Part shown: positions 39,497 to 59,485 of the stretch, in pieces
Position numbering within the stretch: the first letter of the stretch is position 1
How the letters are laid out: the number at the start of each line of letters is the position of its first letter
DNA from: a virus
IMG/VR virus record: IMGVR_UViG_3300020171_000005
Coordinates: 1 to 64,000 of that record
Strand: one strand, 5' to 3'
Length of the DNA stretch: 64,000 nt
Notes under the pieces: model-generated
What the model saw: only the letters and a program-made list of their open reading frames with translations
Databases searched by the model: none
What the model was told of the DNA's origin: nothing
Program-made: the position numbers and the translations under genes

Positions 39497-39497
39497 G

Positions 39498-43705: not shown

Positions 43706-43727
43706 GGTAGTGAAAAGATCATTTTCA

Positions 43728-44405
43728 TTACATAATCCCACCCCCAAAAAGAGGAATGAGGGGTGGTGGAGGGAAAGGGAATGCTACCTTTGGCCTTGCC
43801 CTTACCGATGCAGCGGGGTCACCTAATAGTATAGCGTTATTATGGTTGAATTGCAGACAGCTTTTTATCAACTCATCTTCCTCGACCTCAATGTTCCTTA
43901 AGTAACCTTCAAGTTCCACATTCAACGCCTCCCCAGCTGTCTCACCATTGAGTAAAGTGTTGAGTCCCTCAACCACTGGCATCAAGCTAGTAGCTGCCAT
44001 CTTATCATCCCAAGGGGTTGAGGCATAGTCAGAATCCATCACCCAAACGTAATCGTCCATATAGCCCATGAAGGCAACACAACCATTCCTCACTAAATCT
44101 GGCCCTAGCTCTACTCCACACTGGCAGGATATAAGTTTAATTACCTTGCCCTTGACTTCCTTAGGATCGTACTTCCCAACCTCAAGAAGTACATCCTCAT
44201 GTTGGCCAGTAAAAGCATCCACATCGCCATGACCAGCTCCAACAATGATATCAGACTGGGGAACAGCCAGTCTAAACGGCAAACGCCGTACCAAAACAGA
44301 AAGGAGCTGAACTGGTTCCACCCTAGGAGCGATATACCTCAGGAGGAAACCAGAGGCACTTCTCGTAGCCAAGTCAAAATCCGCCATGCATAGTGTAATT
44401 GGCAT
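43728..44405 (-). CDS. Caspase/gingipain-like (clan CD, C25/CHAT-type) peptidase
   Basis: 225 residues. DIIVGAGHGDVDAFTG gives the catalytic His (H59) and KLISCQCGVELG the Cys (C94 or C96), each at the end of a hydrophobic strand as in clan CD peptidases. NNAILLGDPAASVRARP near residue 190 matches the conserved LLGDP block of C25/CHAT domains. A long Pro/Phe/Gly-rich tail follows. It lies among virion genes, so processing of virion proteins is plausible; clan CD enzymes often cut after Arg or Lys. Confidence 0.7.
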   Translation of the reverse strand: MPITLCMADFDLATRSASGFLLRYIAPRVEPVQLLSVLVRRLPFRLAVPQSDIIVGAGHGDVDAFTGQHEDVLLEVGKYDPKEVKGKVIKLISCQCGVELGPDLVRNGCVAFMGYMDDYVWVMDSDYASTPWDDKMAATSLMPVVEGLNTLLNGETAGEALNVELEGYLRNIEVEEDELIKSCLQFNHNNAILLGDPAASVRARPKVAFPFPPPPLIPLFGGGIM

Positions 44406-44438
44406 TTATCTCGTCTCTCCTTTTACACTTTCACAACT

Positions 44439-44894
44439 TCACACCCTGAAGCTTGCCTTAGGAGACGTGAGCCTTCTATCGCCATGGCTCCACATTTGGG
44501 TTGGCGTTGCTCCTTCCCAGCTTCCTACTCCATGTACTGCTGCCAGCTCAAGCATTGACGCAGGGTCAGTAGGCAGTTTGTCAATTTTGGCTGTCCAAAT
44601 AGTAACCGCACATTCCTCTGCGCCGAAGACTCCAGGATTTCCAGACTTAACATCAGCTATCATCCTTTGAACCTCCAAAGGGGCAAGAAACGGCTCTGTT
44701 CGATAAAGACCATTTGAGCCCTGAATGTATGCCATCGGGGCACTATCAAGGTACTTAGAATCATCTTGATTGAAGAGGCTAACGACAACAGTAGCTGTGC
44801 TTACAGGCATACCAGCATCATCCAGAACTTGAGCGTAAATTATCGCTGCCTCTCCTGGAGTATATTCACTTCCGAAGACCTTTATCGTTGCCAT
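44439..44894 (-). CDS. Tail-type protein with Ig-like domain
   Basis: 151 residues. Ig-like N-terminal domain (GEAAIIYAQVLDDAGMPVST) and a C-terminal signature LAAVHGVGSWEGATPTQMWS, then RRLT, like the ends of phage tail or fibre proteins. Only 1 base separates it from the next gene. Confidence 0.6.
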   Translation of the reverse strand: MATIKVFGSEYTPGEAAIIYAQVLDDAGMPVSTATVVVSLFNQDDSKYLDSAPMAYIQGSNGLYRTEPFLAPLEVQRMIADVKSGNPGVFGAEECAVTIWTAKIDKLPTDPASMLELAAVHGVGSWEGATPTQMWSHGDRRLTSPKASFRV

Positions 44895-46055
44895 TTATTC
44901 TCCTGCATACAATAATTTTCTCCACCCTGTTCCAGCTTCTCGCTTCAGCTGGTTCCAAGCATAAGGGGTTGGTGGTTCAGAAGCATACTGTAGTTGCTTC
45001 CACTCCGCTCCTACCTCAATATCCCCATAGCCATAAAGACTAATTGCATAACCAACGACCCAGGTATACGTTGCCTCATCGCCTGGGTCTATATGTTCAC
45101 CTAACACCACCCACACACCAGTACCTCCAGAGGTGTCCATCTCTATAGCACCAACAGCATAATAGCATCCGATGTAATCGCCTTCTTGTACCGCAATGGA
45201 AAGCTCGGTAAATGTTCGCTCTGCACCAGCCACTACATCACCTATAAGTTCACTATCTCGGCATTTGAGTGTATCGCCGCTCACAACATAGAAAGTCCCG
45301 ACTATTAAATATGTCATATTAACGTATGGGTAGACTTTTATACTATGAATTATGCCACTAGCGTTGGCAGGATTAGCCTTGTCAACACGAGTGCCACCAG
45401 ATGAATAGTAAGTCGCTCGGTCAATAGAAATTGAGCCAACATCAATGTCTGATACTGGTGGCTCCCAAGGTGTTTCAACTCGCTCCGCCACTCCCTCATT
45501 GACCACCATGATGGAGCCAACGGTAGCCTTTTTGCCAGCAGTAGTAACCTTCCAGTTCAGGATAATAAAGATATATTCGTCTGTTAAAGTAAGGTTCTGG
45601 TTGCAATTGACGGTTACAGTCCCCGTCTTTATCTCACCCGCAGTAGCAGCAAAGGAAATCGTGGCAGAAACCCCGTCTGCCGAGTTCATCTTGGTTAGTT
45701 GAGCTGTGGTTGGATTGGCATAGCTGGTGCGATAGACACGAACATTTATTGTGCCTTCATGAGCATTTGCATCTTTATTTCTGAGCTTATAGGCTATCGC
45801 CCAGTTACCTGAAGGGAATGTCTTATTGTAAATATTCTCTGAACGCCAGCCATGAGCACCATCAGCATCACCTTCAATGAAACTGGCACCGTAAGTAGCA
45901 CCATTGGCGATACCAGGTACATAAGCAAAGTAATTGCCCGAACTGACCTTGCCATTTACGATGCTGGTGGCTTCATTGGCACTATCAGGAGCAACTTCGG
46001 ACAATCTCCATACTTTAGTGGAGAGTTCAACACTCTCAAAGTATAGTGTTGTCAT
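44895..46055 (-). CDS. Large beta-rich virion-like protein
   Basis: 386 residues. First 190 residues a beta-sandwich (YFESVELSTKVWRLSEVAPD), second domain after 195; ends WRKLLYAGE. Typical tail or fibre composition (Thr, Val, Tyr, Gly). Function inferred from place. Confidence 0.6.
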   Translation of the reverse strand: MTTLYFESVELSTKVWRLSEVAPDSANEATSIVNGKVSSGNYFAYVPGIANGATYGASFIEGDADGAHGWRSENIYNKTFPSGNWAIAYKLRNKDANAHEGTINVRVYRTSYANPTTAQLTKMNSADGVSATISFAATAGEIKTGTVTVNCNQNLTLTDEYIFIILNWKVTTAGKKATVGSIMVVNEGVAERVETPWEPPVSDIDVGSISIDRATYYSSGGTRVDKANPANASGIIHSIKVYPYVNMTYLIVGTFYVVSGDTLKCRDSELIGDVVAGAERTFTELSIAVQEGDYIGCYYAVGAIEMDTSGGTGVWVVLGEHIDPGDEATYTWVVGYAISLYGYGDIEVGAEWKQLQYASEPPTPYAWNQLKREAGTGWRKLLYAGE

Positions 46056-46320
46056 CTTTTTCTATCACCCTGAATCCACATTTCGGAGGCACTTGTCCAG
46101 GAGAATAGGGGAAGTTCTTTCGCTGGTCTAGGTCGCAGTTTCCAATCTGTATGTCTTTGTCAAACACCTTGCAGTTGGAGATGAGTGCCCCATAATCCTT
46201 GCCCGATTGCATGACCTCCCCCTTCTTAATAACTCTTAAAGCTACCCACTCAAATTCAGGGCAATGGTTGTCACAGCATCGCCCGCACTGCCGACATTCA
46301 CCAGTGCGTATGTAAAGCAT
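46036..46320 (-). CDS. YkgJ-like Cys-cluster protein
   Basis: 94 residues. N-terminal GECRQCGRCCDNHCP and later C50, C62, C81 fit the CxxxCxxCC-type cluster of YkgJ/UPF0153 zinc or iron-sulfur proteins. It overlaps the large tail gene by 20 bases and breaks a run of structural genes, an odd place for a metal-cluster protein. Confidence 0.7.
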   Translation of the reverse strand: MLYIRTGECRQCGRCCDNHCPEFEWVALRVIKKGEVMQSGKDYGALISNCKVFDKDIQIGNCDLDQRKNFPYSPGQVPPKCGFRVIEKDDNTIL

Positions 46321-46399
46321 AAAAACCTCCTATGCTAAGTCAAACGCTATTCCGCCCTCACGAAGACAGCACTACTGCAATTGCCTACCTTAACCAGCA

Positions 46400-46648
46400 T
46401 TATTCAGTCTCTTCTATTTTCTTTATTGGTGGCTTATCCGTTAGCTTCACAACGCCCATTACCTCTCTATACTTGGCTTCCATCAGCTCAAACCTGATAA
46501 GGTCAAGCACAAAGAGGGTATTCTGGATTGTTGCCCTTTGCTCCTGGACTACTCCGACCAAGGCGTTGTGTAGCTCCTCGCACTCCTTTGCCCGTGCTTG
46601 CTCATAGGCTCTCTCAAGGCTTGCGAATAGCTCTTCCTTCTTAGCCAT
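46400..46648 (-). CDS. Coiled-coil protein
   Basis: 82 residues; nearly continuous amphipathic helix (ASLERAYEQARAKECEELHN, DLIRFELMEAKYREV). May be a fibre or assembly partner. Confidence 0.6.
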   Translation of the reverse strand: MAKKEELFASLERAYEQARAKECEELHNALVGVVQEQRATIQNTLFVLDLIRFELMEAKYREVMGVVKLTDKPPIKKIEETE

Positions 46649-46663
46649 ATTTACTTCCTCCTG

Positions 46664-47260
46664 TTATGCTCCTACCCAAACATAGGCATGCTTGTCAGCA
46701 ATACCAGTGTCAAAGTAGACCTGACCTTCCACTTCTGTGCCTAAGTCTGGCGGAGTATCAACTGCTTCAAGAACCAAGCCATCAGCTTGCTGCTTATTGA
46801 GGTTTACTGCTGCGGTGGGTAAACCAAGCTCATTGAGCAAAATAGCATCACCGCCAGCTAGCTTATGGTCAGCAGCATGTAGCTTAGGGACACTAACGCC
46901 CCTAGAGGCTGCATCCAAGCCCATGTAACCGCTGGCTGCATCCTTGTGAACAAGTTCCTCAAGTCCTGCTTCAGCCGCCGTCTTGTTAATCCATGTGCCT
47001 ACCTCATAAGACAGAACCTCATCGTCAGCTGGTGTAGTGATAGTAACATCTGTCTGCCCAGCATCCAATGCGTGAGCACCAGCACTTTCAGCTGCCCAAG
47101 CTGGGTCAGCAGAAGCACCACCAGACTTCAGCACGTATCCGGATGCACCATGCACCAACTCAATTACAGCACCAGTTGAATCAATAAGTAGCATCCTGTA
47201 GGCTGTTCCCTTTAACTCTGTAGCCAGGTCTCCTGCTAGTAAAATCTTTGTCCAAGCCAT
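46664..47260 (-). CDS. Fibre-like protein
   Basis: 198 residues with fibre-type segments GASGYVLKSGGASADPAWAA, KLHAADHKLAGGDAILLNEL and FDTGIADKHAYVWVGA, which occur in tail and head fibres of many phages. Likely trimeric. Confidence 0.65.
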   Translation of the reverse strand: MAWTKILLAGDLATELKGTAYRMLLIDSTGAVIELVHGASGYVLKSGGASADPAWAAESAGAHALDAGQTDVTITTPADDEVLSYEVGTWINKTAAEAGLEELVHKDAASGYMGLDAASRGVSVPKLHAADHKLAGGDAILLNELGLPTAAVNLNKQQADGLVLEAVDTPPDLGTEVEGQVYFDTGIADKHAYVWVGA

Positions 47261-47261
47261 T

Positions 47262-47501
47262 CTAGTCCTCCTTCCTAATTATTTTTCTCTCACCATTCGT
47301 AGGATTAACATATATTGCCTGTGTCTCAGATAGGAAAACTCGTCTATCTGTATCATCTCGTGCATAGAACACTTCCTCTACAGAATCATAGTCTATCGCA
47401 ACGTCCCAAATATTGACAGGTGGAACTGCAGCTAATCTCACGACCACTAATATACCCCCCTTATCCGCACCTCCACCTCTCCTCAAAATAAAATGCTGCA
47501 C
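47262..47501 (-). CDS. Small hypothetical protein
   Basis: 79 residues; basic Gly-rich start, beta strands (GILVVVRLAAVPPVNIWDVA). Follows the fibre partner genes; unknown. Confidence 0.5.
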   Translation of the reverse strand: MQHFILRRGGGADKGGILVVVRLAAVPPVNIWDVAIDYDSVEEVFYARDDTDRRVFLSETQAIYVNPTNGERKIIRKED

Positions 47502-47521
47502 TTATCATAATGTCTCCTCTT

Positions 47522-47878
47522 CTAATACTTCCCTACTACTCTAACCGATGCTGTATTGCCGGGGTTACACCAATAGTAAACAGCCTCAATTCTCCTGTCC
47601 GCTTTAGTGAAATCAAGTGACAGAGTCTCAGCCAGGTTAAGAGTAGCTGGCTTAGCCAGGCCGTTAATAGCTATGAATACAGAGTTTGGGCCATCATTAA
47701 CTGCCGTGGCAGTTGCCCAAGGGACATTTGGGTACTGATCCAGTTCTAAACACTGAACAACATCAGTAGCACCAAAAGTCCTTGGGTCCAGCTCTCCCTC
47801 AAACTCTTCCTTCTCAAGAGACTTCCGTATTTTGGTTAGCTGCCCCAGTGTGGCAAGCTGGGTAATCGCCTGGATCAC
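47522..47878 (-). CDS. Virion-like protein; frame extends upstream to about 47980
   Basis: 118 residues from the GTG at 47878, but this start has no ribosome-binding site. The same frame is open for 34 more codons with protein-like content (NPSELGKQLAIPQIRVIEDG) yet has no ATG. At its upstream edge is a run of five A (47977-47981) in the end of the motif gene; removing one A would give a GTG start right after GGGAGG. So either a sequence indel, a rare start or a frameshift fusion is involved. Body is beta-rich. Confidence 0.5.
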   Translation of the reverse strand: MIQAITQLATLGQLTKIRKSLEKEEFEGELDPRTFGATDVVQCLELDQYPNVPWATATAVNDGPNSVFIAINGLAKPATLNLAETLSLDFTKADRRIEAVYYWCNPGNTASVRVVGKY

Positions 47879-47969
47879 ATCCGGGCGAACTATCTCCTTA
47901 CCATCCTCAATGACTCTTATCTGAGGGATGGCAAGTTGCTTGCCCAGTTCACTCGGGTTGATTATGGTC

Positions 47970-48257
47970 TTATCCGTTTTTCACAGCCTCCCTATGTACT
48001 ACGACTTTAGTAGGCAACCCCTCTGAACTCCACTCAATCTCCCAACTCTCTTCATTTTGATAGGTAGCCAAGGGGGCCTGCCGCTGGACTATATCTGTTT
48101 CTGTTTCCTCAACCCCAGTGAAAAATTGATGGGGAGTCGGAAGAGAAAGGAACCCAAGTGACTGCTGTTGAGGCCAATATATCCCTAGGAACCGAGGCAA
48201 TGGAGGCCCTTCCCATGGTAACATCGGTAGTAAATCGGCTATATTGAACTGCATCAT
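47970..48257 (-). CDS. Motif protein, N-terminal LPWEGPPLPR peptide
   Basis: 95 residues with the best copy of the peptide: LLPMLPWEGPPLPRFLGIYW, then P (about 8-28). The rest is Gln/Thr-rich with strands EESWEIEWSSEGLPTKVVVH. Overlaps the upstream gene by 4 bases; the downstream frame problem begins at its end. Confidence 0.65.
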   Translation of the reverse strand: MMQFNIADLLPMLPWEGPPLPRFLGIYWPQQQSLGFLSLPTPHQFFTGVEETETDIVQRQAPLATYQNEESWEIEWSSEGLPTKVVVHREAVKNG

Positions 48258-48517
48258 TTACCCCCAGCCACAATCCTCCTCATCAGGTCAAAGAACTCAG
48301 GATTTTTCTCCAACTCATCAGGTATGTTATCCAACGGTACCGCATTGGGATACCTCTTTGCTTTCGTACTCAAGTTCACCAAAATAGGTCTTGAGCCATG
48401 TCCACCTTCTAGCCTCTTGACTTCCTGGTATCTCCTGAAGGCTTCAGCAGCGGCTGCCCGATCACCCCGGCGTAGAGCTTCCTGATACTTTTGCCATTCC
48501 TCTTTTGAGCTAGCCAA
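48254..48517 (-). CDS. Helical hypothetical protein
   Basis: 87 residues; EEWQKYQEALRRGDRAAAAE and EAFRRYQEVKRL form a TPR-like helix pair. C-terminus PDELEKNPEFFDLMRR. Function unknown. Confidence 0.55.
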   Translation of the reverse strand: MASSKEEWQKYQEALRRGDRAAAAEAFRRYQEVKRLEGGHGSRPILVNLSTKAKRYPNAVPLDNIPDELEKNPEFFDLMRRIVAGGK

Positions 48518-48521
48518 TTCT

Positions 48522-50528
48522 TCACTCCTCCTTCATCATCAAAGCTAAATCTGGTATCCCAGAGTAGTAAGCGCCAAAGTCAAAGACATATTTCTTTCCG
48601 TTTCTTAATTGAAATGGGAATTGATACCGGGCAATCGTCGGGGCATAGCCGTCCTCCCATGGGCCAGCTGCGGTAATAGACAGGTCATTTACGGTCTCCG
48701 GCACGAGCTCCCCCCACTCCCAGATATAATACAGTGGCTGCAGGACTGGCATATAAGGTAAAGCACCTCCGGCTCCACAGACTGCTCTCCATTGCGTCGC
48801 CCCAGCGGGAGCGTTAATAACCCTCAATTGGAATCCGGGTGTAACTATGCTCACGGTCTTGAAAGTCCTATCTACTCCGTAATCGTCGCCAAGGGTAGTG
48901 TGAGCCACCGCCCTGAAATGATACGTTGTATTGGGCTGCAGCCCAGTGAGTTTGGCTGTAAACTCCTGACCAGAATGTAAATAGATATAAGTAGTTTTAG
49001 AGCCATAGCTGGTAGTTTTACCCCACTCGAAATGGCAACGCGCCTCATCATGGCTACCAGCGCTGACAAGTCTACCATTAAGGTCGGCACTATCCCCACC
49101 AATACTGGTTGCAGGTAGGGTCTCAACGGTAGGGGCTTCGTAAGCAGCTTCCTTGAAATGAGCTGTAATTAGTCTATGCTCCGTCATGGGATAAACCGGT
49201 GCAGTTATCTTAGTCGTATCCGTCATCTCCCCTGACCACCGGTCGAAAGCATAGCCCGCATAAGGGTGGGCAGTAACATAGACAGTGGTGCCACGGGGGA
49301 ATTGCCAGTTATGCTGTATTCCGCCCGAAGGTGCAGGGTCAGTAGTTACATAGCCAGACCCAGCAGGGTCAATTTTGACCTGAAGAGTCTCTAGTACCTC
49401 TTCGACGACATAATAGACGTCATCCCATTCACCCTCTTTAATGAGATCCCCAGAAACATATATCTGGACTCCGACGTCTCTCCTGTCTATGGTGCCGGCA
49501 ACGGCGATGTCATAGAAGCTGTCGACCGTTGCTGTTATACCAGGAGATATGATAAAGTCTGCAGTTTTGGTAGTCAGCAGTGTGCCATGAGTCGCGTAAA
49601 TACTCCCCTCATAAATTAAGACCTTGATGGTGATTGATTGTTGCTTGGTGCATTTGGAAGTCACATTAAAGATGATTTTTACCGTATCTCCAGGTTTTGC
49701 TTGAGAAGGTGATGCTGTCGGCTGGGTGAGGTCGAAATCGATTACCTCCTCTGGAGCCTTCACATAGTAGACGTCGTCCCACTCACTATCCTTTACCATC
49801 TGACCGCCGACATAGACTTCAACCTCAACATCTCGCCGGTCTATAGTACCGGCTACGGTGGTATGGGAGAAGTTGAACGTCTTAGTCTCCCCAGGAGCGA
49901 TAGCCGTAGCAGGCGAAGTGTACTGTGCCAGCTTGGCACCATGACCGGGCATAAGGCTGCCCTCGTAGATAATGCACTTGACTGTGATGTTATAGGACTC
50001 AGTGGACTCTGATGTCACCGGGCACATGATTTTAATGACCGTACCCGGACTAACAGGGCTGGCCAGGCTGATTGTCGGTCTAGTTAAACTGAAACCAAGC
50101 TCTTCCTCTGGCACCTCACCGGCAACAATGAAGGTCGTCTTCTCGCTGGCTATTGGGGGGAAAGGTGGCAGCACTATGCTGTCCAAGCTGTACGTTGGCC
50201 CAAGGTAAACCGCTACTTCGAGGATAAACTCCCCCTCACGGTCGAAGCCTTTAGGGAACTTAATCTCGAAGTTACCACCAAAAACGGTAGCCCCCTCACT
50301 TATTGTGGGCCCACCAATTATTGGGATTATCTCCTCCCACCAGCTTTCGGGATAGGTGACCTTAGCTTGCACCCAGACTGGTGCTAAGAATAGTAGTCCA
50401 AATAATTCTACCTTACCTTTTACAGTGAAAGGCTCTTTCAGTCTTGGTGCTTCAGGTGTGTAGGTTATATCCTCCAGGGAGAAAAGCATATCGCCTGATA
50501 TTTGAGGGAGTTTAGTCGGTTGTTGCAT
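48522..50528 (-). CDS. Multidomain surface/tail protein (CARDB-like, InlB-repeat-like, FN3)
   Basis: 668 residues. N-terminal beta domain (1-140); two tandem sandwich domains (about 145-265, 265-375) both with AGTIDRRDV and EWDDVYYV; an InlB-type repeat (about 385-460, VYVTAHPYAGYAFDRWSG); an FN3-like domain (about 465-555, GLQPNTTYHFRAVAHT); C-terminal domain to 668. No signal peptide. Architecture is that of bacterial surface proteins and suggests host-derived adhesion modules on a phage particle. Confidence 0.7.
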   Translation of the reverse strand: MQQPTKLPQISGDMLFSLEDITYTPEAPRLKEPFTVKGKVELFGLLFLAPVWVQAKVTYPESWWEEIIPIIGGPTISEGATVFGGNFEIKFPKGFDREGEFILEVAVYLGPTYSLDSIVLPPFPPIASEKTTFIVAGEVPEEELGFSLTRPTISLASPVSPGTVIKIMCPVTSESTESYNITVKCIIYEGSLMPGHGAKLAQYTSPATAIAPGETKTFNFSHTTVAGTIDRRDVEVEVYVGGQMVKDSEWDDVYYVKAPEEVIDFDLTQPTASPSQAKPGDTVKIIFNVTSKCTKQQSITIKVLIYEGSIYATHGTLLTTKTADFIISPGITATVDSFYDIAVAGTIDRRDVGVQIYVSGDLIKEGEWDDVYYVVEEVLETLQVKIDPAGSGYVTTDPAPSGGIQHNWQFPRGTTVYVTAHPYAGYAFDRWSGEMTDTTKITAPVYPMTEHRLITAHFKEAAYEAPTVETLPATSIGGDSADLNGRLVSAGSHDEARCHFEWGKTTSYGSKTTYIYLHSGQEFTAKLTGLQPNTTYHFRAVAHTTLGDDYGVDRTFKTVSIVTPGFQLRVINAPAGATQWRAVCGAGGALPYMPVLQPLYYIWEWGELVPETVNDLSITAAGPWEDGYAPTIARYQFPFQLRNGKKYVFDFGAYYSGIPDLALMMKEE

Positions 50529-51266: not shown

Positions 51267-52214
51267 TTATATTATATCCTCTTTATTGTCCTTTGTCAAG
51301 GTTAACATATTTATAATCGTTTCGTGGATAAAGTCCTTAGTAACCAAAGGGTGATCCTTCAAGTGGCTAGGAAATGAATCTCCCAGAAGGTAAGGCTTAA
51401 AGGCAGATACCATCTTGGTAACCAGAGCTTCTATAGGAGTCTCATGGAAGCCCTCTAGTTGAATTCTGAACCTAACCATTATGAACTCACCAATCCAGTC
51501 AGCCAACTGCCTCAGAGTAGGGGGATTTGGATTGGTAAGCCAGTAAGTACCTGCCGTATGGGGCCTAGCTATCTCGTTAACAACCTGTTCCACCATAACC
51601 AAGTTAAGATAACCCTCAGGATCACCCCTTATCCTGAATACAGGTTCTACAACAGGTAACCTAAGAGTCCCCTCAACCTTGCGGCGAATGACCTCTGCTC
51701 TCCCATGTACTTTTATGAGAATTGAAATGAATTGGGAAAAATGACCTGGGTAAGGATTTTCCCTTGTCCCCATAACGATAGATGGCTTGAAGATTACAAT
51801 CTTGGGTATGCCAGAGCTACTCACCATCTTATCACATTCGATCTTTGACTTTTCGTAAACATTTCTGCCATCATCCACGGTATAGGCCGTAGAACAGAAG
51901 TAAAGTTGATTTATCTCATGTTTACAACAAAAGGCTATAACGCTCTTGGTTCCAGCAACGTTAGTCTTCCAGATGTTACCATTCTTGTCCCTACCAAGAT
52001 GATGGACGGCAGCCAGGTGGTAGACTCTATCTATCCCACGTGGGGCTACCTCGAGGCCAAGGTTAGGTTCAGTAATGTCTCCCACGAGTGGGATAACATT
52101 TTTAGAGGGATGTGGGGGATGCCTCGAGAGGGCATAAACTGTGTTACAGGCAGCTAACTTGGGCAGTAGGACTTTCCCGATGAACCCACTAGCGCCCGTC
52201 AATAAAATCTTCAT
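51267..52214 (-). CDS. Extended SDR, reductase/epimerase type
   Basis: 315 residues. Rossmann motif GASGFIG (7-13), VGDITEPNLG, VYHLAAVH, catalytic S108 (FCSTAY) and Y120-x3-K124 (NVYEKSK). The closest look is the NAD_binding_4 group (fatty acyl or thioester reductases) or nucleoside-sugar epimerases. With a type III PKS, prenyltransferase and lipid carrier downstream, reduction of an acyl or polyketide carbonyl is a reasonable guess. It opens the lipid-type cassette. Confidence 0.75.
   Translation of the reverse strand: MKILLTGASGFIGKVLLPKLAACNTVYALSRHPPHPSKNVIPLVGDITEPNLGLEVAPRGIDRVYHLAAVHHLGRDKNGNIWKTNVAGTKSVIAFCCKHEINQLYFCSTAYTVDDGRNVYEKSKIECDKMVSSSGIPKIVIFKPSIVMGTRENPYPGHFSQFISILIKVHGRAEVIRRKVEGTLRLPVVEPVFRIRGDPEGYLNLVMVEQVVNEIARPHTAGTYWLTNPNPPTLRQLADWIGEFIMVRFRIQLEGFHETPIEALVTKMVSAFKPYLLGDSFPSHLKDHPLVTKDFIHETIINMLTLTKDNKEDII
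51271..51299 (-). promoter_or_regulatory. Promoter inside the 3' end of the SDR gene
   Basis: TTGACA (51299-51294), 17-bp spacer, TATAAT (51276-51271) on the minus strand, 25 bases before the ATG at 51246. An internal promoter that separates the solenoid gene from the lipid cassette. Confidence 0.75.
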
Positions 52215-52270
52215 AATTTCTTCCTTATCCCAATAGCCTTCATTGCTTCTATGTTACTAGCATCTTCATC

Positions 52271-52594
52271 TTACCCCTCCCCCTTGAGGATACCCTCAAG
52301 TAGGGTTACTACTCTCATTCTTTCTGCTCTACTCTCAAATGAGGTTGTCCCTACTGTACGTCCTTTATCTTCTCTAATCACCTTAATCTGCCCCCTACCA
52401 GTAGAAGACTCCTTCCAGACTATTCTCCACGGCCAGACCATCTTGCTCCCAGTAGACACAATCTCCCTTCTACGCCTCTTAGGAAGACCCTCTTCTTCCT
52501 CTCCCCTCGGGAAGAACTTCGGAGGAGTAGGAGGTCTAATAACTCTGAAGAGCCTACGCATTACTTCATCTGGGCTGGGAGGAAACTTAGGCAT
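52271..52594 (-). CDS. Basic protein with MPK-Pro N-terminus
   Basis: 107 residues from the ATG at 52594 (GGAGGTGGCCG upstream; 8-base overlap). Starts MPKFPPSPDEVMRRLFRVIR, then PPTPPKFFP, related in style to the motif proteins; middle very basic (LPKRRRREIVSTGSKMVWPW). Unknown. Confidence 0.55.
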   Translation of the reverse strand: MPKFPPSPDEVMRRLFRVIRPPTPPKFFPRGEEEEGLPKRRRREIVSTGSKMVWPWRIVWKESSTGRGQIKVIREDKGRTVGTTSFESRAERMRVVTLLEGILKGEG

Positions 52595-52931
52595 CGGCCA
52601 CCTCCAGCCTATCAGTCTGAATCTCAAAGGGAACTAACCCCAACTTGATGGAAACTTGAAGGGGCTTCTCGTCAAAGGTTACTGACCAACAATCAGTACC
52701 GAAAGGACCAATGTGATCAGTGGCCTCTCGATAGTTCCCATCTGAACCCACATAAACTCCATATAGGAGAGGAAGAGGAAGCCCGTTACGTACTTGGAAC
52801 TTAAAAGTACTTCCTTCCCAAGAATGAGCCCCATAAAAACGTAAGATTGGCTGGGGAGGGCGAGCTAAGAACTCCGCTATCTTATCCCCAATGGACCTGG
52901 GAACGTCATTCTCAATGATGTTTATTATCAC
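52587..52931 (-). CDS. Beta-rich hypothetical protein
   Basis: 114 residues; helical start (INIIENDVPRSIGDKIAEFL), then GSTFKFQVRNGLPLPLLYGV and further strands. Reminiscent of small carbohydrate-binding or fibre domains. Coupled by a 4-base overlap. Confidence 0.55.
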   Translation of the reverse strand: MIINIIENDVPRSIGDKIAEFLARPPQPILRFYGAHSWEGSTFKFQVRNGLPLPLLYGVYVGSDGNYREATDHIGPFGTDCWSVTFDEKPLQVSIKLGLVPFEIQTDRLEVADA

Positions 52932-53140
52932 TTTAGACCTCTAGTACATTCCTGACATAGTCTTATCTTCCCCATCTTGACAACCTGTTCTCCAGCTCTC
53001 AGTTCCCTTCCACATCCACTACATCTCCACTTTGAACCCCCAGGAACTGTTACTACTTTCACGGCCATCTTTTTCATAATCCCCTTTGGGATAGGGGGGA
53101 AGGGGAACCTTGTTGGTAAAAAGTCATCTTTACTTGGCAT
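52928..53140 (-). CDS. Zinc-ribbon protein with FLP-PPIP N-terminus
   Basis: 70 residues from the ATG at 53140, which overlaps the upstream stop (TGATG). N-terminus DDFLPTRFPFPPIPKGIMKK is a weak variant of the element's peptide (aromatic, PPxPK); C-terminus CSGCG and CQEC form a zinc ribbon. Confidence 0.6.
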   Translation of the reverse strand: MPSKDDFLPTRFPFPPIPKGIMKKMAVKVVTVPGGSKWRCSGCGRELRAGEQVVKMGKIRLCQECTRGLK

Positions 53141-53478
53141 CACCAATTCCCCCTCAGTAGTTCCTTCGGCCATGTAAAGGGTGGATAACTCGCCGGCGGT
53201 AACCAAATGGTACACCAGCCTCGAGGTGAGATCCTTCCTCCAACTACTGAACAGGCGTTGGGGTCCCTCCAAAACCTACATTTCTTACACTTGTAGTCCC
53301 AGAATACAGGAGGTGGGGAGAAGGGTAGATAACCTACTTGGAGTTTAGTGAACTTCCCCTCAGTAATCGCTCTCGAGGTTATCTTATCCACCCAGGGTTG
53401 TAGGACTCCAGGCTTAAAGGTGGAATTGGCAGCTGCCTTACTAACCGAACTGACTAACATCGAAACAGCATTCATCAT
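53140..53478 (-). CDS. HiPIP-like iron-sulfur protein
   Basis: 112 residues. CKKCRFWRDPNAC followed by GWCTIWLP gives C64, C67, C76 and C89, the CxxC-C-C layout and GWC-aromatic ending of high-potential iron-sulfur proteins, but with shorter spacing. A Phe/Pro/Trp-rich flank (YLPFSPPPVFW, PPFTWP) surrounds it. No export signal. A soluble electron carrier for the neighbouring enzymes is possible; a zinc site cannot be excluded. Confidence 0.55.
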   Translation of the reverse strand: MMNAVSMLVSSVSKAAANSTFKPGVLQPWVDKITSRAITEGKFTKLQVGYLPFSPPPVFWDYKCKKCRFWRDPNACSVVGGRISPRGWCTIWLPPASYPPFTWPKELLRGNW

Positions 53479-53489
53479 GTTACCACCCC

Positions 53490-53750
53490 CTAAATATGAT
53501 CCTCCCAGGTATATGGCCAGCCCTCAAACATATACTCTTTAGGAATGGGCTCTCCGGCTATAAGACATGAAGCACTTATCTTGGACTTTTCATAAAACCT
53601 ACCAACCTTAGTTACCACCCCAGGTTCCTTTCCCTTCGTCCACTCAGGCCACATTATAAAATAGCGATGGGGCAAAGGAGGACCCATGTCTGGGGGCAGG
53701 GGAGTCCAACCATATAGCTTTCCAGCCAAATTCCTTCTAAAGTCTCCCAT
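53490..53750 (-). CDS. Motif protein, MGPPLPH variant
   Basis: 86 residues with WTPLPPDMGPPLPHRYFIMW, then PEW (about 14-36). The remainder has EYMFEGWPYTWEDHI at the end. Lies between the HiPIP-like and membrane proteins of the lipid cassette. Confidence 0.6.
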   Translation of the reverse strand: MGDFRRNLAGKLYGWTPLPPDMGPPLPHRYFIMWPEWTKGKEPGVVTKVGRFYEKSKISASCLIAGEPIPKEYMFEGWPYTWEDHI

Positions 53751-53761
53751 TATTCACCTCC

Positions 53762-53980
53762 CTATTCTGGCTTTGCTCTTCTAAACCAGAACTGATTAAC
53801 ATTTCCTGCCCAGTTAATCAAGGCCCCTAGAAGTACATTGGCGCCTGCTGAAGCCAAGACGTCCACAGCTTGTAACTCCGTGCAGGCCCTGTATGTTATC
53901 CATACGCAGAAGACTGCCCACCCGACAGTTACACTCAGAACAAAGAAAGAATATGCCTGCTTGAACTTTTCGTCATTCAT
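53762..53980 (-). CDS. Two-TM membrane protein
   Basis: 72 residues from the ATG at 53980; hydrophobic spans about 10-30 and 42-60, charged ends. Holin-like in size, but its place between the motif protein and a prenyltransferase could mean a membrane partner of that cassette. Confidence 0.55.
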   Translation of the reverse strand: MNDEKFKQAYSFFVLSVTVGWAVFCVWITYRACTELQAVDVLASAGANVLLGALINWAGNVNQFWFRRAKPE

Positions 53981-53981
53981 G

Positions 53982-54878
53982 TTAACTCCCCACCGCTTGC
54001 CCAATTACTAAAAGTATGGGGTAGCACGCACCGGTGACGACAAACCAAGGAGCGAACTTATCAAATGACCCCTTGAGCATGACTAACAGCCCCATGAAGA
54101 TAGGTACTAGTAGGAAAGTAATTCCGGTAAGCGGATGGAATATATCCACCGTAATCAAAAATACCTGATAAGTATACATCAGGGCAAACCAAATTCCAAG
54201 ATAAGCACTCAGGTCGAACTTGTATTCCCACACTTTGTAAGCTATGCTTTTAACACCTTTCTTCAAATTTGCTTCAGCATCTGGCCACTCATCTAACGCT
54301 AACCCCAAAAAGGATAATATGATTGCGATAGGGATACTGGCTATCAAGCCATCTACCCATGGAGGTGATCCACTTACTGAGAACATCCCAAGGAGTACTG
54401 ATATAGGTCCAACGCCCATTCCCAGAGCTAATTCATGAGTGTAATTGAACTTGGCCTTGGAATACCAAAAAGTCACTAACATCCCAAGAAAAGCCAGCAG
54501 AATAACCCAAGGGGAAACCATAACCGACAACATAATAATAGGAATAAGTGCGATAACATACCACCCGATAGCGTTATATAGGACCTCCCTAGAGGAGACC
54601 ACTCCCTGGGCTATAAGACTCTGTCCACCTGTATATGACTTCTCGGCACTGCGTTGGTCCACTTCCCCTTTATCCACCCCCGTCCACTCGTAATCGAGGT
54701 ACGAGTTGAAAGAGTGGCCACCAGCCATTATGAGAAGGCCGGCTATAAGGCCCAGCCAGGGGTAGAGGGTTGATAGGTCACCTCCAGCCAGGATTACCCC
54801 CATCATGATACTGGCCCCAAAGAAAGGTATAGCAAATGGCCTAGGTAAAGTCCACAAGTGGATCTTTAGTTTATTCAT
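53982..54878 (-). CDS. UbiA-family prenyltransferase
   Basis: 298 residues, about nine membrane spans. Both aspartate motifs are present: N58-x3-D62 with D69 and D74 (NSYLDYEWTGVDKGEVDQ), and D196-x3-D200 (LDEWPDAEA). UbiA enzymes transfer an isoprenyl chain from a diphosphate to an acceptor, usually an aromatic ring or glycerol, in the membrane. The acceptor cannot be read, but the polyketide synthase nearby would supply an aromatic one. Rare in phage genomes. Confidence 0.9.
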   Translation of the reverse strand: MNKLKIHLWTLPRPFAIPFFGASIMMGVILAGGDLSTLYPWLGLIAGLLIMAGGHSFNSYLDYEWTGVDKGEVDQRSAEKSYTGGQSLIAQGVVSSREVLYNAIGWYVIALIPIIMLSVMVSPWVILLAFLGMLVTFWYSKAKFNYTHELALGMGVGPISVLLGMFSVSGSPPWVDGLIASIPIAIILSFLGLALDEWPDAEANLKKGVKSIAYKVWEYKFDLSAYLGIWFALMYTYQVFLITVDIFHPLTGITFLLVPIFMGLLVMLKGSFDKFAPWFVVTGACYPILLVIGQAVGS

Positions 54879-54888
54879 GTCTTACCTC

Positions 54889-55617
54889 CTACTCTTTATT
54901 ATATTCCTTTAGAAACTCCATGAGATAGCCCCTAGACAATTCATCTATTCCCCCCTCCACCCCGAATAATTGACCCATCTCTAGTACATCCTTAACATAC
55001 TGTACTGAACCTACAACATAGGGCCTAACTACTCTCAATAAAACCGCAAATCTCATTCCCCGTCTAATGGCATCCAACTCATGCAAAACTGGAGTAGGGA
55101 TTCTTGCCTCTTCTCGGTCTTGCACAAAATGGCCAAGTTCATGACATAACCTAATCCTAAGTCTAGTCAAGCTAGGAGGATTGGTCAGAGCTATATCTAT
55201 GCCCCCACTCTTACCTCGACCCCATGGTCTAGCTTGATACATACTTTGGTCAGAAAAATAGGGCATGTAAGGTAAGTTCAAGTCAGGGGGTCTACCTGGG
55301 GCCCAACCTTGAGACCAACCCCTTCTGGTTTTAGGGGGGTTCCATAGGATTACCCTGACCTCCATTGGACTTCCAAAGTTATTCACCAACCCGCTGGCTT
55401 CATTAGTAGCTAGTGTCGAGAGAAAAGGGTCTATCCACGGGATACCTAATCTCTCTCTAGTTTTTCTGTCCAAAGTCCTTTTAGAGCTAAGTTGATTATA
55501 CTGCTCAAAGGTAATCCTCTCAGAAAGATAATCATTCCTAAGACTTGCAGACTCATTAAGATAGGCCTTCAGTTCAGGATCCATCTTAACATCAGGGACC
55601 ATCTTGGCTCTAGGCAT
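54889..55617 (-). CDS. HELGH zinc metallopeptidase-like protein
   Basis: 242 residues. Zinc motif H159-E-L-G-H163 (LCHELGHFVQ) followed about 16 residues later by HELDA, a candidate third ligand, as in ImmA/IrrE-type or phage capsid-associated peptidases. N-terminal 150 residues are basic and Pro-rich. Its presence inside the lipid cassette is unexplained; it may serve particle maturation. Confidence 0.7.
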   Translation of the reverse strand: MPRAKMVPDVKMDPELKAYLNESASLRNDYLSERITFEQYNQLSSKRTLDRKTRERLGIPWIDPFLSTLATNEASGLVNNFGSPMEVRVILWNPPKTRRGWSQGWAPGRPPDLNLPYMPYFSDQSMYQARPWGRGKSGGIDIALTNPPSLTRLRIRLCHELGHFVQDREEARIPTPVLHELDAIRRGMRFAVLLRVVRPYVVGSVQYVKDVLEMGQLFGVEGGIDELSRGYLMEFLKEYNKE

Positions 55618-55628
55618 CTACTCACCCC

Positions 55629-55928
55629 CTAATGCCATCTCAAGTCTTTTAACATCGTCTGGATGTTTAACATGTGCCTGTGTTCATCTTCTGCCATTGA
55701 CTGCAACGTGGCAGCTATATCCGGCCTACCGATATTATAGGAATCATCAGCCAGCCGGGAGTAATCCTTGAAGGCCGTCTGTTCGTCCTCAACGTACGGA
55801 GTTAGTTTCCTGTTCAACTCCAACTCCTCGATTGGGGTACTTCTGTGTATGCCTGGAGTAAATATCCCAGACCCTCTCCCCAAGGTAAAGGGGATCTTAG
55901 GTGGGAACTCCGGTAGCTTTGGCATCAT
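55629..55928 (-). CDS. Ferritin-like (rubrerythrin-type) small protein
   Basis: 99 residues. N-terminus MPKLPEFPPKIPF resembles the MPKL-Pro start of the motif proteins. Two helices carry VEDEQTAFKDYSRLADD and LQSMAEDEHRHMLNI, the ExxxY and DExxH patterns of ferritin-like di-iron proteins; too short for a full four-helix bundle, so a dimer is needed. Overlaps the PKS gene by 4 bases. Confidence 0.65.
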   Translation of the reverse strand: MMPKLPEFPPKIPFTLGRGSGIFTPGIHRSTPIEELELNRKLTPYVEDEQTAFKDYSRLADDSYNIGRPDIAATLQSMAEDEHRHMLNIQTMLKDLRWH

Positions 55929-56971
55929 TCACCTCCTCCAAAACGTAATAAGGTTGCTCCGGCAGCTAATCCCGCTCCAAGGCTAATCACCACGATGTAA
56001 TCATTAAGCTTAATATCCTCGCTCATCAATAACTTGCCGACTATACCTATAGAAGAAGAAGAGCAGTTACCATAAGTTCTTAACGCTTCTCTTGATAATG
56101 ATAACTTCCCCTCAGGTAGACCAATAACATCTCGGATATTATCTAATACGGTCTTTCCTCCCGGGTGAATAACCCACCAGGAGATGTTATCAATCTCTAA
56201 ACCGTTCCGCTGTAATAACCTATCAACTACAATCTTAGCTCCCAATGGAGCTACCTTAGGCACCTGACGAGACAACAAGCAACGTAGCCTTCCATCCTGC
56301 CAAAGAAAGCCCAAGTGGTGCATGTTCTCAGGGTCGAAGTAACTCTCAAAGTCGATAATATGTGGATGCCTCCAGTTGTTATCGAAGCCTACAAGGACTG
56401 ATGAAGCACCATCCCCAAAGATAGCGTTAGCCCTAAGAAGCTCATAATCCCGAGTTTTATCAGGATGTGGCCCATCCTCAGGGAAATGACACACACTGCA
56501 GATTTCACAACTCACCGCCAACGAGGGTTTTTGATGGGCCACAGTATAGTCAAAAGCCCTTCTGAGAGCAGGGTATCCACCTTCACACCCATGACCTAAG
56601 ACGCTGGTATAGACCACATCCGAAGCAAACTCCATTTCACCCGCAAGTCTATGGATTATACTGGGACACTCGTACCCAGTACAGGAAGCGAAGGAGATAC
56701 TCCCACATGTGGAAGGAGCACGGCCATCCAGACATAACTCTATGACTTTCCTTGATAACCATATAGCCCCTTTCTTATACTCCTCCACAGCTTCCTGCCA
56801 GGAGGTTATCTCCCACATGGGGACCCAAAAATGGCGTTTTTCTATCTCAGCTCCATTAAAAATGGACCACCATCGTAAGGGGTATCCTAAGGCATCAAAA
56901 ACCTCTCGTTGGGTATATGAGTTAGGTGGAACTGCAAACCCTATACTTATTACCTTAGGCAGGTTGTCCAT
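55925..56971 (-). CDS. Type III polyketide synthase (chalcone synthase family)
   Basis: 348 residues, full family length. Catalytic triad: C129 in VLGHGCEGGYPALRRAFDY, H269 in WWVIHPGGKTVLDNI, N302 in TYGNCSSSSIG. The IHPGG block separates it from KAS III and HMG-CoA synthase. These enzymes extend an acyl-CoA with malonyl-CoA and cyclise it to pyrones or resorcinols. Sits between a ferritin-like protein and a prenol-kinase-like protein (22-base overlap), with UbiA two genes on. I know of no common phage homologue. Confidence 0.9.
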   Translation of the reverse strand: MDNLPKVISIGFAVPPNSYTQREVFDALGYPLRWWSIFNGAEIEKRHFWVPMWEITSWQEAVEEYKKGAIWLSRKVIELCLDGRAPSTCGSISFASCTGYECPSIIHRLAGEMEFASDVVYTSVLGHGCEGGYPALRRAFDYTVAHQKPSLAVSCEICSVCHFPEDGPHPDKTRDYELLRANAIFGDGASSVLVGFDNNWRHPHIIDFESYFDPENMHHLGFLWQDGRLRCLLSRQVPKVAPLGAKIVVDRLLQRNGLEIDNISWWVIHPGGKTVLDNIRDVIGLPEGKLSLSREALRTYGNCSSSSIGIVGKLLMSEDIKLNDYIVVISLGAGLAAGATLLRFGGGE

Positions 56972-57603
56972 AACACCCCCATAACCGCTAAACTCGATAC
57001 TATTATTGTCCAGTTATCATCTACCCAGGTCCTTGACAACCCACTGTACTTCTCAACCAATGTGGCTACTACTGCTCCAATGGCAGCTACCCAGTAAGGT
57101 GTAAATAACGTACCAACAAGTAGGCATGTTACTAACATCCCAACACTACCCCAATTACCTTTGACCTCTCTTCCGTAGACCTTAGCTCTTATAAGGCCGG
57201 TTACCATATCACCCCAAGCCATAAAGAGAATGGGGACAATAGCAAGATGTGGATTATCTAGCCATACCCACCCAATACATAGTGATAGCGTCCCCGCGAG
57301 TGGAAACCAGATCTCGGCGAGTGCATGTTGACGTGAGGTGCCACCAACACCTCTAAAGGTGGAAGGTCTTATAAGTCTGGCCCCCAATAGCAGCAAAGTA
57401 AATCCAGCTGAGAGGATAAGAGGGTACCAGGGGGTGGAAAACAACAACACACACAAGAGGTAGCCTAGGCCCCCTACACCATGGCCCACCTTACGGGATA
57501 TGTATTGAGGTACATGGTGGTCGTAGAGGATGTTACTGAGATAAAGACCTACCAGTACTGCTGCAGTTATGATAAATAGACCTGGGAGTTCGGAAATTAA
57601 CAT
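56950..57603 (-). CDS. Phytol/dolichol-kinase-like membrane protein
   Basis: 217 residues, about six membrane spans. Family marks: RKVGHG (37-42), WGDMVTGLIRAKVYGREVKG (130-149) with NWGSVGML after it, and E184 and DDN (195-197). This is the CTP-dependent prenol/dolichol kinase and phosphatidate cytidylyltransferase-like superfamily. It would phosphorylate an isoprenoid alcohol, giving the prenyl donor for the UbiA enzyme after a second phosphorylation. Confidence 0.8.
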   Translation of the reverse strand: MLISELPGLFIITAAVLVGLYLSNILYDHHVPQYISRKVGHGVGGLGYLLCVLLFSTPWYPLILSAGFTLLLLGARLIRPSTFRGVGGTSRQHALAEIWFPLAGTLSLCIGWVWLDNPHLAIVPILFMAWGDMVTGLIRAKVYGREVKGNWGSVGMLVTCLLVGTLFTPYWVAAIGAVVATLVEKYSGLSRTWVDDNWTIIVSSLAVMGVLWTTCLR

Positions 57604-57618
57604 CTTCTCTCCTCTTCT

Positions 57619-57672
57619 TCACTCTACACTCTTCAGAAAATCCCTGTAGTCAAATTCTGGCCACTTAGCCAT
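57619..57672 (-). CDS. Possible 17-residue peptide
   Basis: Starts MAKWPEFDYRDF with a strong GGAGGTGGATAA before the ATG, ends SVE. Could be a leader peptide for the prenol-kinase-like gene or a remnant. Short, so doubtful. Confidence 0.35.
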   Translation of the reverse strand: MAKWPEFDYRDFLKSVE

Positions 57673-57734
57673 TTTATCCACCTCCAGGTAATAATTTCCT
57701 AGCCCAACTAATAGCCTCAAGTAGACTCCAATCC

Positions 57735-57914
57735 CTAATGGATTTTCTTCTCTACTTCCGACATGATCCTCACCACTGTATTCTCAAGGAGTTCGTCCAA
57801 GTAAGCAGCAAAATCTGGAGTATTGATTGGTATCTGACGTCTAATATCAGCCTCATGTCTCATGAAGTCCAATAGCTTTAATTTCAACCTATTTGATAAT
57901 GGGGGTAATGTCAT
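57735..57914 (-). CDS. Small helical protein, possibly frameshifted
   Basis: 59 residues from MTLPPLSNRLKLKLLDFMRH to SEVEKKIH. GGAGGTGAGTA precedes the ATG, which overlaps the upstream stop. At its end the other frame (after AAGAAAA) reads SIRDWSLLEAISWARKLLPG and stops exactly before the ATG of the 57672 peptide. The longer product may be the intended one, by indel or frameshift. Confidence 0.55.
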   Translation of the reverse strand: MTLPPLSNRLKLKLLDFMRHEADIRRQIPINTPDFAAYLDELLENTVVRIMSEVEKKIH

Positions 57915-58351
57915 TACTCACCTCCAAGTTTCACATCATAACTGCTCAATATCCTCCCAACTTTCGACAACAACCTATTGAAGATACTCAGATCCCTTAT
58001 TGCGTAATTCCCCACCACTTTGACATCCCCTTTGGCTCTTGCTCTTGAAAAGGCCACAGGGTTACCATTAAGTAGTTCCTGACATACATTAACGAAAGGA
58101 TCCACTCCCTCAAAGACAATTACAGTCCGGGTGTTATCTAGGCTCTCGGTAGGGATCAACCTCCCACCTTTTACCTCAAAGATCTTAGTCCATTTGTTAT
58201 CTCCACGAATCATTATAACACCCTTACGACCTTCACCAAGCTCAGTTTCCTCGGAAGTAACTACCTCAGGGGCAAAGCGATCTTGAACCTTGAGAATAAA
58301 ATCAAAGAGGTCTTCGACCTCAGCTAACTTCTCAACGTCAGTCTTTGGCAT
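57914..58351 (-). CDS. SCP2-like lipid-binding protein
   Basis: 145 residues. The C-terminal two-thirds follow the SCP2 sterol-carrier fold: GVIMIRGDNKWTKIFEVKGG, TVIVFEGVDPFVNVCQELLN, then KGDVKVVGNYAIRDLSIFNR. SCP2 domains bind fatty acyl or isoprenoid lipids in a cavity. In this operon it is a natural candidate to carry the product or precursor of the PKS/UbiA enzymes. No signal peptide. Confidence 0.7.
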   Translation of the reverse strand: MPKTDVEKLAEVEDLFDFILKVQDRFAPEVVTSEETELGEGRKGVIMIRGDNKWTKIFEVKGGRLIPTESLDNTRTVIVFEGVDPFVNVCQELLNGNPVAFSRARAKGDVKVVGNYAIRDLSIFNRLLSKVGRILSSYDVKLGGE

Positions 58352-58686
58352 CAGTCCTCCTTGTCCTCTTCTTCGAACTTCTCTACTTCATCATACTCTC
58401 CTGCCCATGTTTCTAGTAGAGTTCGACGTCTGTCTAGGTACGTCTCCTGAGCAATCACCATCTGCATCTCCACCTGGCTTTTACCAGCACGCTTGGCTTC
58501 TGCCACCAAGAGTGGATGCCCTATGGGGTATTTCACCTCTGTCTCTTTCAAAGCATTGCGCCATATCTCTTTTACCTCTGGTGCTGCCGTTTTAGGAGGA
58601 CCATACTCTCTCTTCTGCATGGCAATCTTAGGGACTGGGGGACCCTCCCAAGGTGGCTGAGGAAGAAAGTCGCTAAGCTTTGGCAC
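58351..58686 (-). CDS. Motif protein, MPKL-FLP-WEGPPVPK N-terminus
   Basis: 111 residues beginning MPKLSDFLPQPPWEGPPVPK, then a charged helical body (QVEMQMVIAQETYLDRRRTL) and an acidic end EEEDKED. Overlaps the lipid carrier by 1 base and the Mrp-like gene by 14. Confidence 0.65.
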   Translation of the reverse strand: MPKLSDFLPQPPWEGPPVPKIAMQKREYGPPKTAAPEVKEIWRNALKETEVKYPIGHPLLVAEAKRAGKSQVEMQMVIAQETYLDRRRTLLETWAGEYDEVEKFEEEDKED

Positions 58687-59485
58687 TTTTTCTCCTTCTT
58701 GCTAAAGTCAATAGAATTCGGTACGGGAGATTGGAAACCGGAGTAACCTTCAAGTAAGTAGGATCCACCTCCATCAGGTTATCTACAACTCCATCTAAGG
58801 TCGGAAATCCCATACTTGGGAGTACATGAGGAATGGAACCGAGGTAAGGAATCCCTTGAGACTCACAAAAGGCTTTTATATCCTCCTCGCCCAGATCATA
58901 GAGGTCAATCTTCTCTCCATCATGTGGACATTCTACATACACTTGGTTACCAATAAGACCCAATACCGGAACATGAAGATCTTTAAGAAGAGATACAGTT
59001 CTAAGAAGATCCGCTATGGCTGTCGTTGCCGGTTGGGTTACAAGGACTACCCCAAAGAGACCTTTAATCATCAATGCAGCATGAACGAATTTGGCAGTAG
59101 TCGGAGGAGTATCCATTATGAGGTAATCAAGAGGACCATCCACATCCCAATTTATTACCCCTGGGGTGGTTATCTCCATAATATCCTTTATGGTAGATTC
59201 CTCGTCCATAGAGACTGCTTGGTCTGAAGGGAATATAAAGGCAGAAGATACCAATGGGAAACCCTCTGGAGAAATAATTGGTTGTATAATGTCGCCCACT
59301 CCAGCATCGAGGACTAACCCGTGACGTGGGTCAATTCCAAGTTCCACATGAAGATTCGGGGCTACCCAGTCCGTATCTAAGAACCCGACTTTGAGGTTTT
59401 TGCTTTTGAGGGCTCGACCGAGAGCTACACATACTTTGGATTTCCCAACTCCACCCTTGGTAGCCATCACTGGTATCGTCCTCAT
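58673..59485 (-). CDS. Mrp/NBP35-MinD-type ATPase
   Basis: 270 residues. Deviant Walker A KGGVGKS (10-16), LDTDWVAPNLHVELG, LIMDTPPTT, and the block CPHDGEKIDLYDLGEEDIKA followed by GIPYLGSIPH, which matches Mrp/ApbC iron-sulfur carriers. In Mrp this block starts CPHC; here C186 is followed by Asp, so the cluster-binding CxxC is broken. Partition (ParA-like) or Fe-S loading role for the nearby metalloproteins is open. Its own promoter diverges from the plus-strand unit. Confidence 0.75.
   Translation of the reverse strand: MRTIPVMATKGGVGKSKVCVALGRALKSKNLKVGFLDTDWVAPNLHVELGIDPRHGLVLDAGVGDIIQPIISPEGFPLVSSAFIFPSDQAVSMDEESTIKDIMEITTPGVINWDVDGPLDYLIMDTPPTTAKFVHAALMIKGLFGVVLVTQPATTAIADLLRTVSLLKDLHVPVLGLIGNQVYVECPHDGEKIDLYDLGEEDIKAFCESQGIPYLGSIPHVLPSMGFPTLDGVVDNLMEVDPTYLKVTPVSNLPYRILLTLARRRKSAKA

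Follow-up and report, generated by a model that had tools for sequence, protein, structure and literature searches.

Can a virus carry its own route to a prenylated aromatic lipid? The question is raised by a 64,000-nucleotide stretch of DNA (positions 1 to 64,000 of the IMG/VR record IMGVR_UViG_3300020171_000005), referred to here as the window, which holds a cassette of five lipid- and polyketide-type genes between positions 51267 and 58351. Our favoured answer, by a narrow margin over an even chance, is that the cassette is a conserved viral lipid-biosynthesis module leading to a prenylated polyketide phenol or a quinone-like membrane lipid. An earlier reading of the sequence alone (the original prediction) had described five genes on one strand with intact catalytic residues, and the open reading frames (ORFs) lie exactly where it placed them, with the residues concerned invariant against 5-10 relatives:

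51267-52214, minus strand: extended short-chain dehydrogenase/reductase (SDR), 315 amino acids, with Tyr120/Lys124
53982-54878, minus strand: UbiA-superfamily prenyltransferase, 298 amino acids, with both Asp motifs
55925-56971, minus strand: type III polyketide synthase (PKS), 348 amino acids, with Cys129-His269-Asn302
56950-57603, minus strand: cytidine triphosphate (CTP)-type prenol (phytol/dolichol/farnesol) kinase-like membrane protein, 217 amino acids, named from its motifs and eight helices
57914-58351, minus strand: SCP2-like lipid-binding protein, 145 amino acids, named from a fold match

The condensing enzyme matches the Pfam chalcone/stilbene synthase C-terminal (7.6e-13) and N-terminal (1.2e-8) domains, both above curated cut-offs, and its closest solved structures in the PDB are CylI (2.1e-25) and Pks11 (2e-24). 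The closest named model is NCBIfam DpgA (3,5-dihydroxyphenylacetyl-CoA synthase; 2.2e-39 over the whole protein), whose equivalog cut-off is not reached (135 bits vs 425), making the enzyme DpgA-like rather than DpgA. C129, H269 and N302 are invariant in six cassette copies and align with the triads of CylI, Pks11 and a PKS of another viral contig, L003 (IMGVR_UViG_3300036856_000023); this triad register and the full-length match identify the enzyme, at the level of sequence, as a type III PKS, which has fold, triad and full-length alignment in common with the bacterial enzymes Pks11, DpgA and CylI. The L003 gene (9965-11047) is a lone actinobacterial-type type III PKS on a Caudoviricetes-like contig, where capsid-, portal- and terminase-like genes were named by eye and no cassette partner lies nearby. 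It represents a separate acquisition of this kind of enzyme by a tailed phage, unrelated to the cassette clade; it likewise places a PKS on a viral contig, but in isolation, whereas the cassette is a conserved pathway-like set.

The viral PKS clade is ~30% identical to nearly all cellular relatives, and in the tree the cassette copies group with two Chloroflexota genes, one of them frameshifted (support 99/97). The frameshifted gene (L148; genome G586, contig 157, 3162-4194) is ~50% identical to the viral clade and is the one cassette-type gene of a short Chloroflexota contig; it is either a decayed copy or a sequencing error. The neighbours observed at cellular PKS genes also differ from those in the cassette. 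An origin from a host cluster was considered and rejected, the neighbourhoods of the 80 closest cellular PKS genes having no UbiA, kinase, SCP2 or SDR homologue (E <= 0.01); in 32 such genomes no UbiA gene lay near the PKS where contig and coordinates were matched by eye.

The UbiA protein is recognised by Pfam (UbiA, 2.2e-13, 50.5 bits vs a cut-off of 34.2), and its Asp residues D62, D69, D196 and D200 are invariant in 10 homologues. Its closest NCBIfam model is MenA (1,4-dihydroxy-2-naphthoate polyprenyltransferase; 2.1e-13), with 50 bits against an equivalog cut-off of 277, and it is thus MenA-like, not MenA. The SDR matches Pfam NAD_binding_4 (1.9e-20) and Epimerase (1.4e-15), both above curated cut-offs, and carries a Rossmann motif (TGASGFIG), with Y120 and K124 invariant in six viral copies; it also has a weak NCBIfam likeness, below cut-offs, to thioester reductase (1.8e-16) and OleD (6.6e-11).

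GD, KG and DDN are motifs of the prenol kinase family. The kinase-like protein carries all three (GD 131-132, KG 148-149, DDN 195-197) together with an RKxxH clamp (R37, K38, H41), invariant in 11 homologues, and its predicted model has eight helices (predicted local distance difference test, pLDDT, 89.7). A profile of the protein matched proteins of GD/DN type and unnamed function from other bacteria, one at 1.7e-6 and another, with RKxxH as well, at 1.1e-3. The CTP-dependent prenol kinase PolK likewise has eight helices and an Arg-Lys-His clamp (PMC10849223), an anatomy that the viral ORF, a putative CTP-type prenol kinase, matches. The AlphaFold model of the SCP2-like protein is of moderate confidence (pLDDT 74.7), and its top PDB match in Foldseek is UbiJ-SCP2 (6h6p; E 2.2e-4, probability 1.00), with further SCP2 proteins behind it; across these top matches E runs from 2e-4 to 2e-3 at probability 1.00 and query TM is ~0.45-0.56, placing the predicted structure in the SCP2 alpha/beta fold. 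The Pfam SCP2 sequence cut-off was not reached, the best value (E = 0.18) coming from one relative. Of the five protein names in the original prediction, Pfam thus upheld SDR, UbiA and PKS; the window's kinase and SCP2 proteins on their own matched no library, the SCP2 name being backed afterwards by fold and the kinase name by motifs and eight helices.

The cassette is also present in another viral contig of IMG/VR, G001 (IMGVR_UViG_3300032170_000078, 55.8 kb). Much of the window is colinear with G001, where the SCP2-like (74% identity), kinase (77%), PKS (77%), UbiA (76%) and SDR (62%) genes stand in window order. A UbiA search of Chloroflexota genomes reached further copies, complete or truncated where the contig stops, in six genome bins (G693, G730, G790, G716, G755 and G550):

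G693 contig 25: ParA, SCP2-like, kinase, UbiA, PKS, SDR and two more window-like genes
G730 contigs 59 and 78: kinase, UbiA, PKS and SDR
G790 contig 9 (70 kb): all five genes, over ~12 kb
G730 contig 4, G716, G755 and G550: truncated sets

The G790 contig also shares with the window ThyX (72%), a 47% homologue of the protein at 43728-44405 and an N-terminal peptide described below. The gene order is PKS, then UbiA in the window and G001 and the reverse in the Chloroflexota-binned relatives, and the cassette-clade PKS is restricted to these contigs among 156 genomes of one Chloroflexota order. In G730 contigs 59 and 78, G716 and G550 the UbiA gene is replaced by a divergent type (33-39% identical) and the remainder of the set is kept; since UbiA is swapped while kinase and PKS stay, the prenyltransferase function appears to have been retained. 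Substitutions between the window and G001 fall mostly at third codon positions, with nonsynonymous divergence (dN) of 0.16-0.30 and saturated synonymous divergence (dS), as in the viral ParA and helicase genes, a pattern indicative of purifying selection on the cassette. Conservation across divergent relatives together with this selection argues against a chance or hitchhiking capture, a doubt that the original prediction had itself raised, and homologous clusters are not confined to settings beside non-viral bacterial genes.

The binning of these contigs in Chloroflexota metagenome-assembled genomes suggests that Chloroflexota are the host. A comparison of the final 19.5 kb of the window with the order at the DNA level gave only diverged gene-level matches and no convincing protospacer. 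Pieces of the virus group are present in two further Chloroflexota genomes, which have no match to the cassette PKS (G643 contig 32, 647-901, and G733 contig 18, 2581-2768; DNA 71-75% identical to about 48269-48530 of the window). Scans of IMG/VR with single PKS, PolA and UbiA sequences gave no match; two-row kinase and UbiA alignments and a wider PKS profile recovered G001 only, and a first PKS profile G001 and L003. Because these scans gave almost nothing beyond G001, the virus group seems nearly absent from IMG/VR as scanned.

From fold, motifs and relatives we infer the following route. The type III PKS, judged by its fold, triad and relatives, would condense malonyl units onto an acyl starter to give an aromatic or pyrone lipid head, and the SDR would reduce a keto or thioester group. 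The kinase-like protein would use CTP to phosphorylate a host prenol towards a prenyl-diphosphate donor, the second phosphorylation being left to the host. UbiA, by family and intact Asp motifs, would prenylate the polyketide ring at the membrane, and the SCP2/UbiJ-like protein, by its fold, would hold greasy intermediates as UbiJ does for ubiquinone. The lipid would be made during infection of the probable Chloroflexota host and may change the membrane or the redox state of the host, or become part of the particle.

UbiJ is a lipid binder of the ubiquinone pathway that binds ubiquinone intermediates (PMC6747719), and the combination of a UbiJ-like SCP2 fold with a MenA-like UbiA strengthens the reading of the product as a prenylated aromatic lipid. 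Ubiquinone and menaquinone biosynthesis (UbiA/MenA with UbiJ/UbiT; PMC6747719) pairs the same kind of UbiA-superfamily prenyltransferase with an SCP2-fold accessory, but its ring comes from chorismate, whereas the cassette ring would come from the type III PKS, and in sequence the viral UbiA and SCP2 proteins are distant from the known families. The CTP-dependent phytol/farnesol kinases of tocopherol/prenol salvage (VTE5, FOLK and PolK; PMC10849223) have eight helices and the RKxxH clamp in common with the cassette kinase, whose gene stands beside that of a UbiA prenyltransferase.

Some points weigh against the proposed pathway. All NCBIfam matches of cassette proteins are far below curated cut-offs; the kinase-like protein has no Pfam, NCBIfam or PDB match by sequence or fold, its identity resting on motifs and helix count; a single kinase yields only a monophosphate, and neither a second (prenyl-phosphate) kinase, as in prenol salvage, nor a prenyl-diphosphate synthase was recognised in the element; and the cassette is without the hydroxylases and methyltransferases of a full quinone pathway. 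The proposal that the genes together could make, prenylate and carry an aromatic lipid is partly upheld by the conserved set, the UbiJ-like fold and the MenA-like UbiA.

The alternative that survives best, though we think it unlikely, is that the cassette serves two side-by-side functions, in which kinase and UbiA (with SCP2) boost the prenyl-lipid or quinone pathway of the host, and an unprenylated alkylpyrone, resorcinol or reduced lipid is the product of PKS and SDR. Kinase-UbiA pairs do occur without a PKS on two apparently chromosomal contigs. In G100 the pair has a trmD-like gene on one side and two-component genes on the other, and the contig also bears ftsZ-, ftsA- and mraW-like genes (all named by eye); in G715 the pair adjoins methyltransferases, one of them UbiE/MenG-like and thus reminiscent of quinone biosynthesis. 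These pairs suggest that kinase and UbiA may work together outside the virus, and two parts of the viral set therefore have partners in a quinone-like cellular setting; in the kinase and UbiA trees viral and cellular copies are intermixed and direction is not resolved. Several other genes also separate UbiA from PKS in G790. Against a division of the cassette, kinase, UbiA, PKS and SDR lie within ~4-12 kb in all copies long enough to show it, and in G693 and G730 contigs 59 and 78 they follow one another closely, with next to nothing in between. A single polyketide-prenyl lipid module remains our preferred reading.

A second alternative, to which we give a slightly smaller chance, bears on the carrier rather than the chemistry: the element may be plasmid-like or otherwise mobile and the cassette an ordinary accessory metabolic cluster of the host. 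The source record is 64,886 bases long in IMG/VR and its last 127 bases repeat its first 127; this terminal repeat makes it a closed element without a chromosomal flank, so the flanking DNA is not bacterial chromosome. The window carries a phage-type UDG-DNA polymerase (phrog_17, 1e-121), a Sak4-like recombinase, an exonuclease, a helicase and an integrase. Among the PHROGs families listed (25 of 69 in one listing) for ~120 proteins of the window and G790, no TerL/terminase, portal, capsid (HK97-type) or tail family was recognised beyond a marginal tape-measure match (E 0.041), a strong though not exhaustive negative. The absence of recognised hallmark genes and the ParA-like gene adjoining the cassette favour a mobile element, and the phage-type replication and recombination genes, the ThyX and dCMP deaminase families, the IMG/VR listing and the lack of conjugation genes among the families listed speak for a virus. 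We call the carrier a virus-like element. With no TerL, portal or capsid family among those listed, a tailed-phage (Caudoviricetes) assignment was rejected, and the phage of the original prediction holds as a virus-like element free of chromosomal flanks, for which the word phage is provisional.

Less likely again, and in our view doubtful, is a KAS III/OleA-like condensing enzyme, in place of a maker of polyketide rings, that yields a long-chain keto or hydroxy lipid together with an OleD-like SDR. It draws on the OleD likeness of the SDR and on KAS III models in NCBIfam, which match the C-terminal half of the PKS (1.6e-14), more weakly than the full-length DpgA match; the best matches are to type III PKS in both NCBIfam and the PDB, the Cys-His-Asn triad lies in PKS register, and no OleB or OleC partner was seen. 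Hitchhiking host genes or a mis-assembly without viral role, for which the host-lineage relatives of kinase and UbiA (45-60% identity) could be cited, is very improbable and already largely refuted by the closed record, the colinear second virus, several more elements, the purifying selection and the failure to find a cellular cluster of the whole set in PKS neighbourhoods or the 156-genome order.

The five cassette genes are not contiguous, and small ORFs as well as the following genes lie among or next to them:

54889-55617, minus strand: HExxH ORF (HELGH), by sequence motif a probable metallopeptidase; no match in the Pfam or NCBIfam libraries; missing from G001 by synteny
55629-55928, minus strand: rubrerythrin-like protein of 99 amino acids inside the cassette (Pfam Rubrerythrin 4.1e-5), with a weak G001 counterpart (1.7e-4)
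57735-57914, minus strand: ORF of 59 amino acids, also in G001 (40% identity)
58351-58686, minus strand: small protein with a PWEGPP-type N-terminal peptide, its gene overlapping the ParA and SCP2 genes and not found at the corresponding place in G001
58673-59485, minus strand: ParA/Mrp-like ATPase (Pfam ParA 9.3e-35; 78% identity in G001)

The kinase and PKS genes overlap by 22 bases and most other neighbours overlap or lie 10-60 bases apart, with a single gap of 131 bases 5' of the kinase gene; the overlaps suggest that cassette genes may be co-translated. In nearly all relatives the ParA-like gene lies directly 5' of the cassette or close to it (5' of the SCP2-like gene at L120, L121, L125 and L126, and 5' of the cassette at L119 and L123), and it is possibly on one transcript with it.

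A peptide of roughly the form PMSPxxGPPLPxxLGIYWPWY, mostly N-terminal, recurs on otherwise unrelated small proteins, seven times in the window (3-218, 1747-2046, 30854-31450, 31457-31729, 47970-48257, 53490-53750 and 58351-58686), twice in G001 (18138-18350 and 28561-29598) and eight times in G790 (contig 9: 2092-2403, 2262-2504, 39456-39827, 56350-59222 and 69576-70013). Exact codon matches of PWEGPP number 4 against 0 expected, and the peptide resembles a tag for sorting, packaging or assembly in the virus group. As bait for further viruses, the shared PWEGPP peptide gave seven matches, none of them (0/7) group members.

No capsid or packaging gene was recognised at 29692-51246 of the window. 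For three consecutive proteins at 40769-42600 (235, 234 and 116 amino acids), G001 and G790 have counterparts that match in gene order but do not align; these three are candidate capsid proteins. A fibre-like protein of 616 amino acids composed of short repeats (TAARAGYLDNI) lies at 33008-34858, with no meaningful family match. The protein at 43728-44405 (225 amino acids), 47% identical to its G790 homologue, has GHG- and SCxxG-like stretches that recall caspase-type peptidases and has no PHROGs match. G001 holds a surface-glycan island at about 36775-50324 (glycosyltransferases, a nucleotide-sugar dehydrogenase and epimerase, an oxidoreductase, an aminotransferase and methyltransferases; named by eye).

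Single metabolic genes are already known on viruses as auxiliary metabolic genes, to which the cassette adds a whole pathway-like set. A literature search, which reached few subscription journals, found no virus or phage with a type III PKS and UbiA set, in line with the original prediction, which knew of no described phage with such a set; a conserved multi-enzyme polyketide-prenyl lipid set is thus undescribed in the literature searched. The more far-reaching idea that a lineage of non-tailed Chloroflexota viruses makes its own prenylated polyketide (quinone-like) lipid by a dedicated, co-conserved pathway, for a membrane-bearing particle or for rewiring of the host membrane, is speculative and on balance improbable; if it held, this would be a first among viral pathways for meroterpenoid lipids. 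If the proposed pathway is correct, it would add a new lipid class to viral chemistry and mark out membranes as a battleground in Chloroflexota. The PKS clade and the UbiA swap would offer a source of enzymes with uncharted products, and self-made particle lipids would become testable in viruses that have no recognisable tailed-phage genes.

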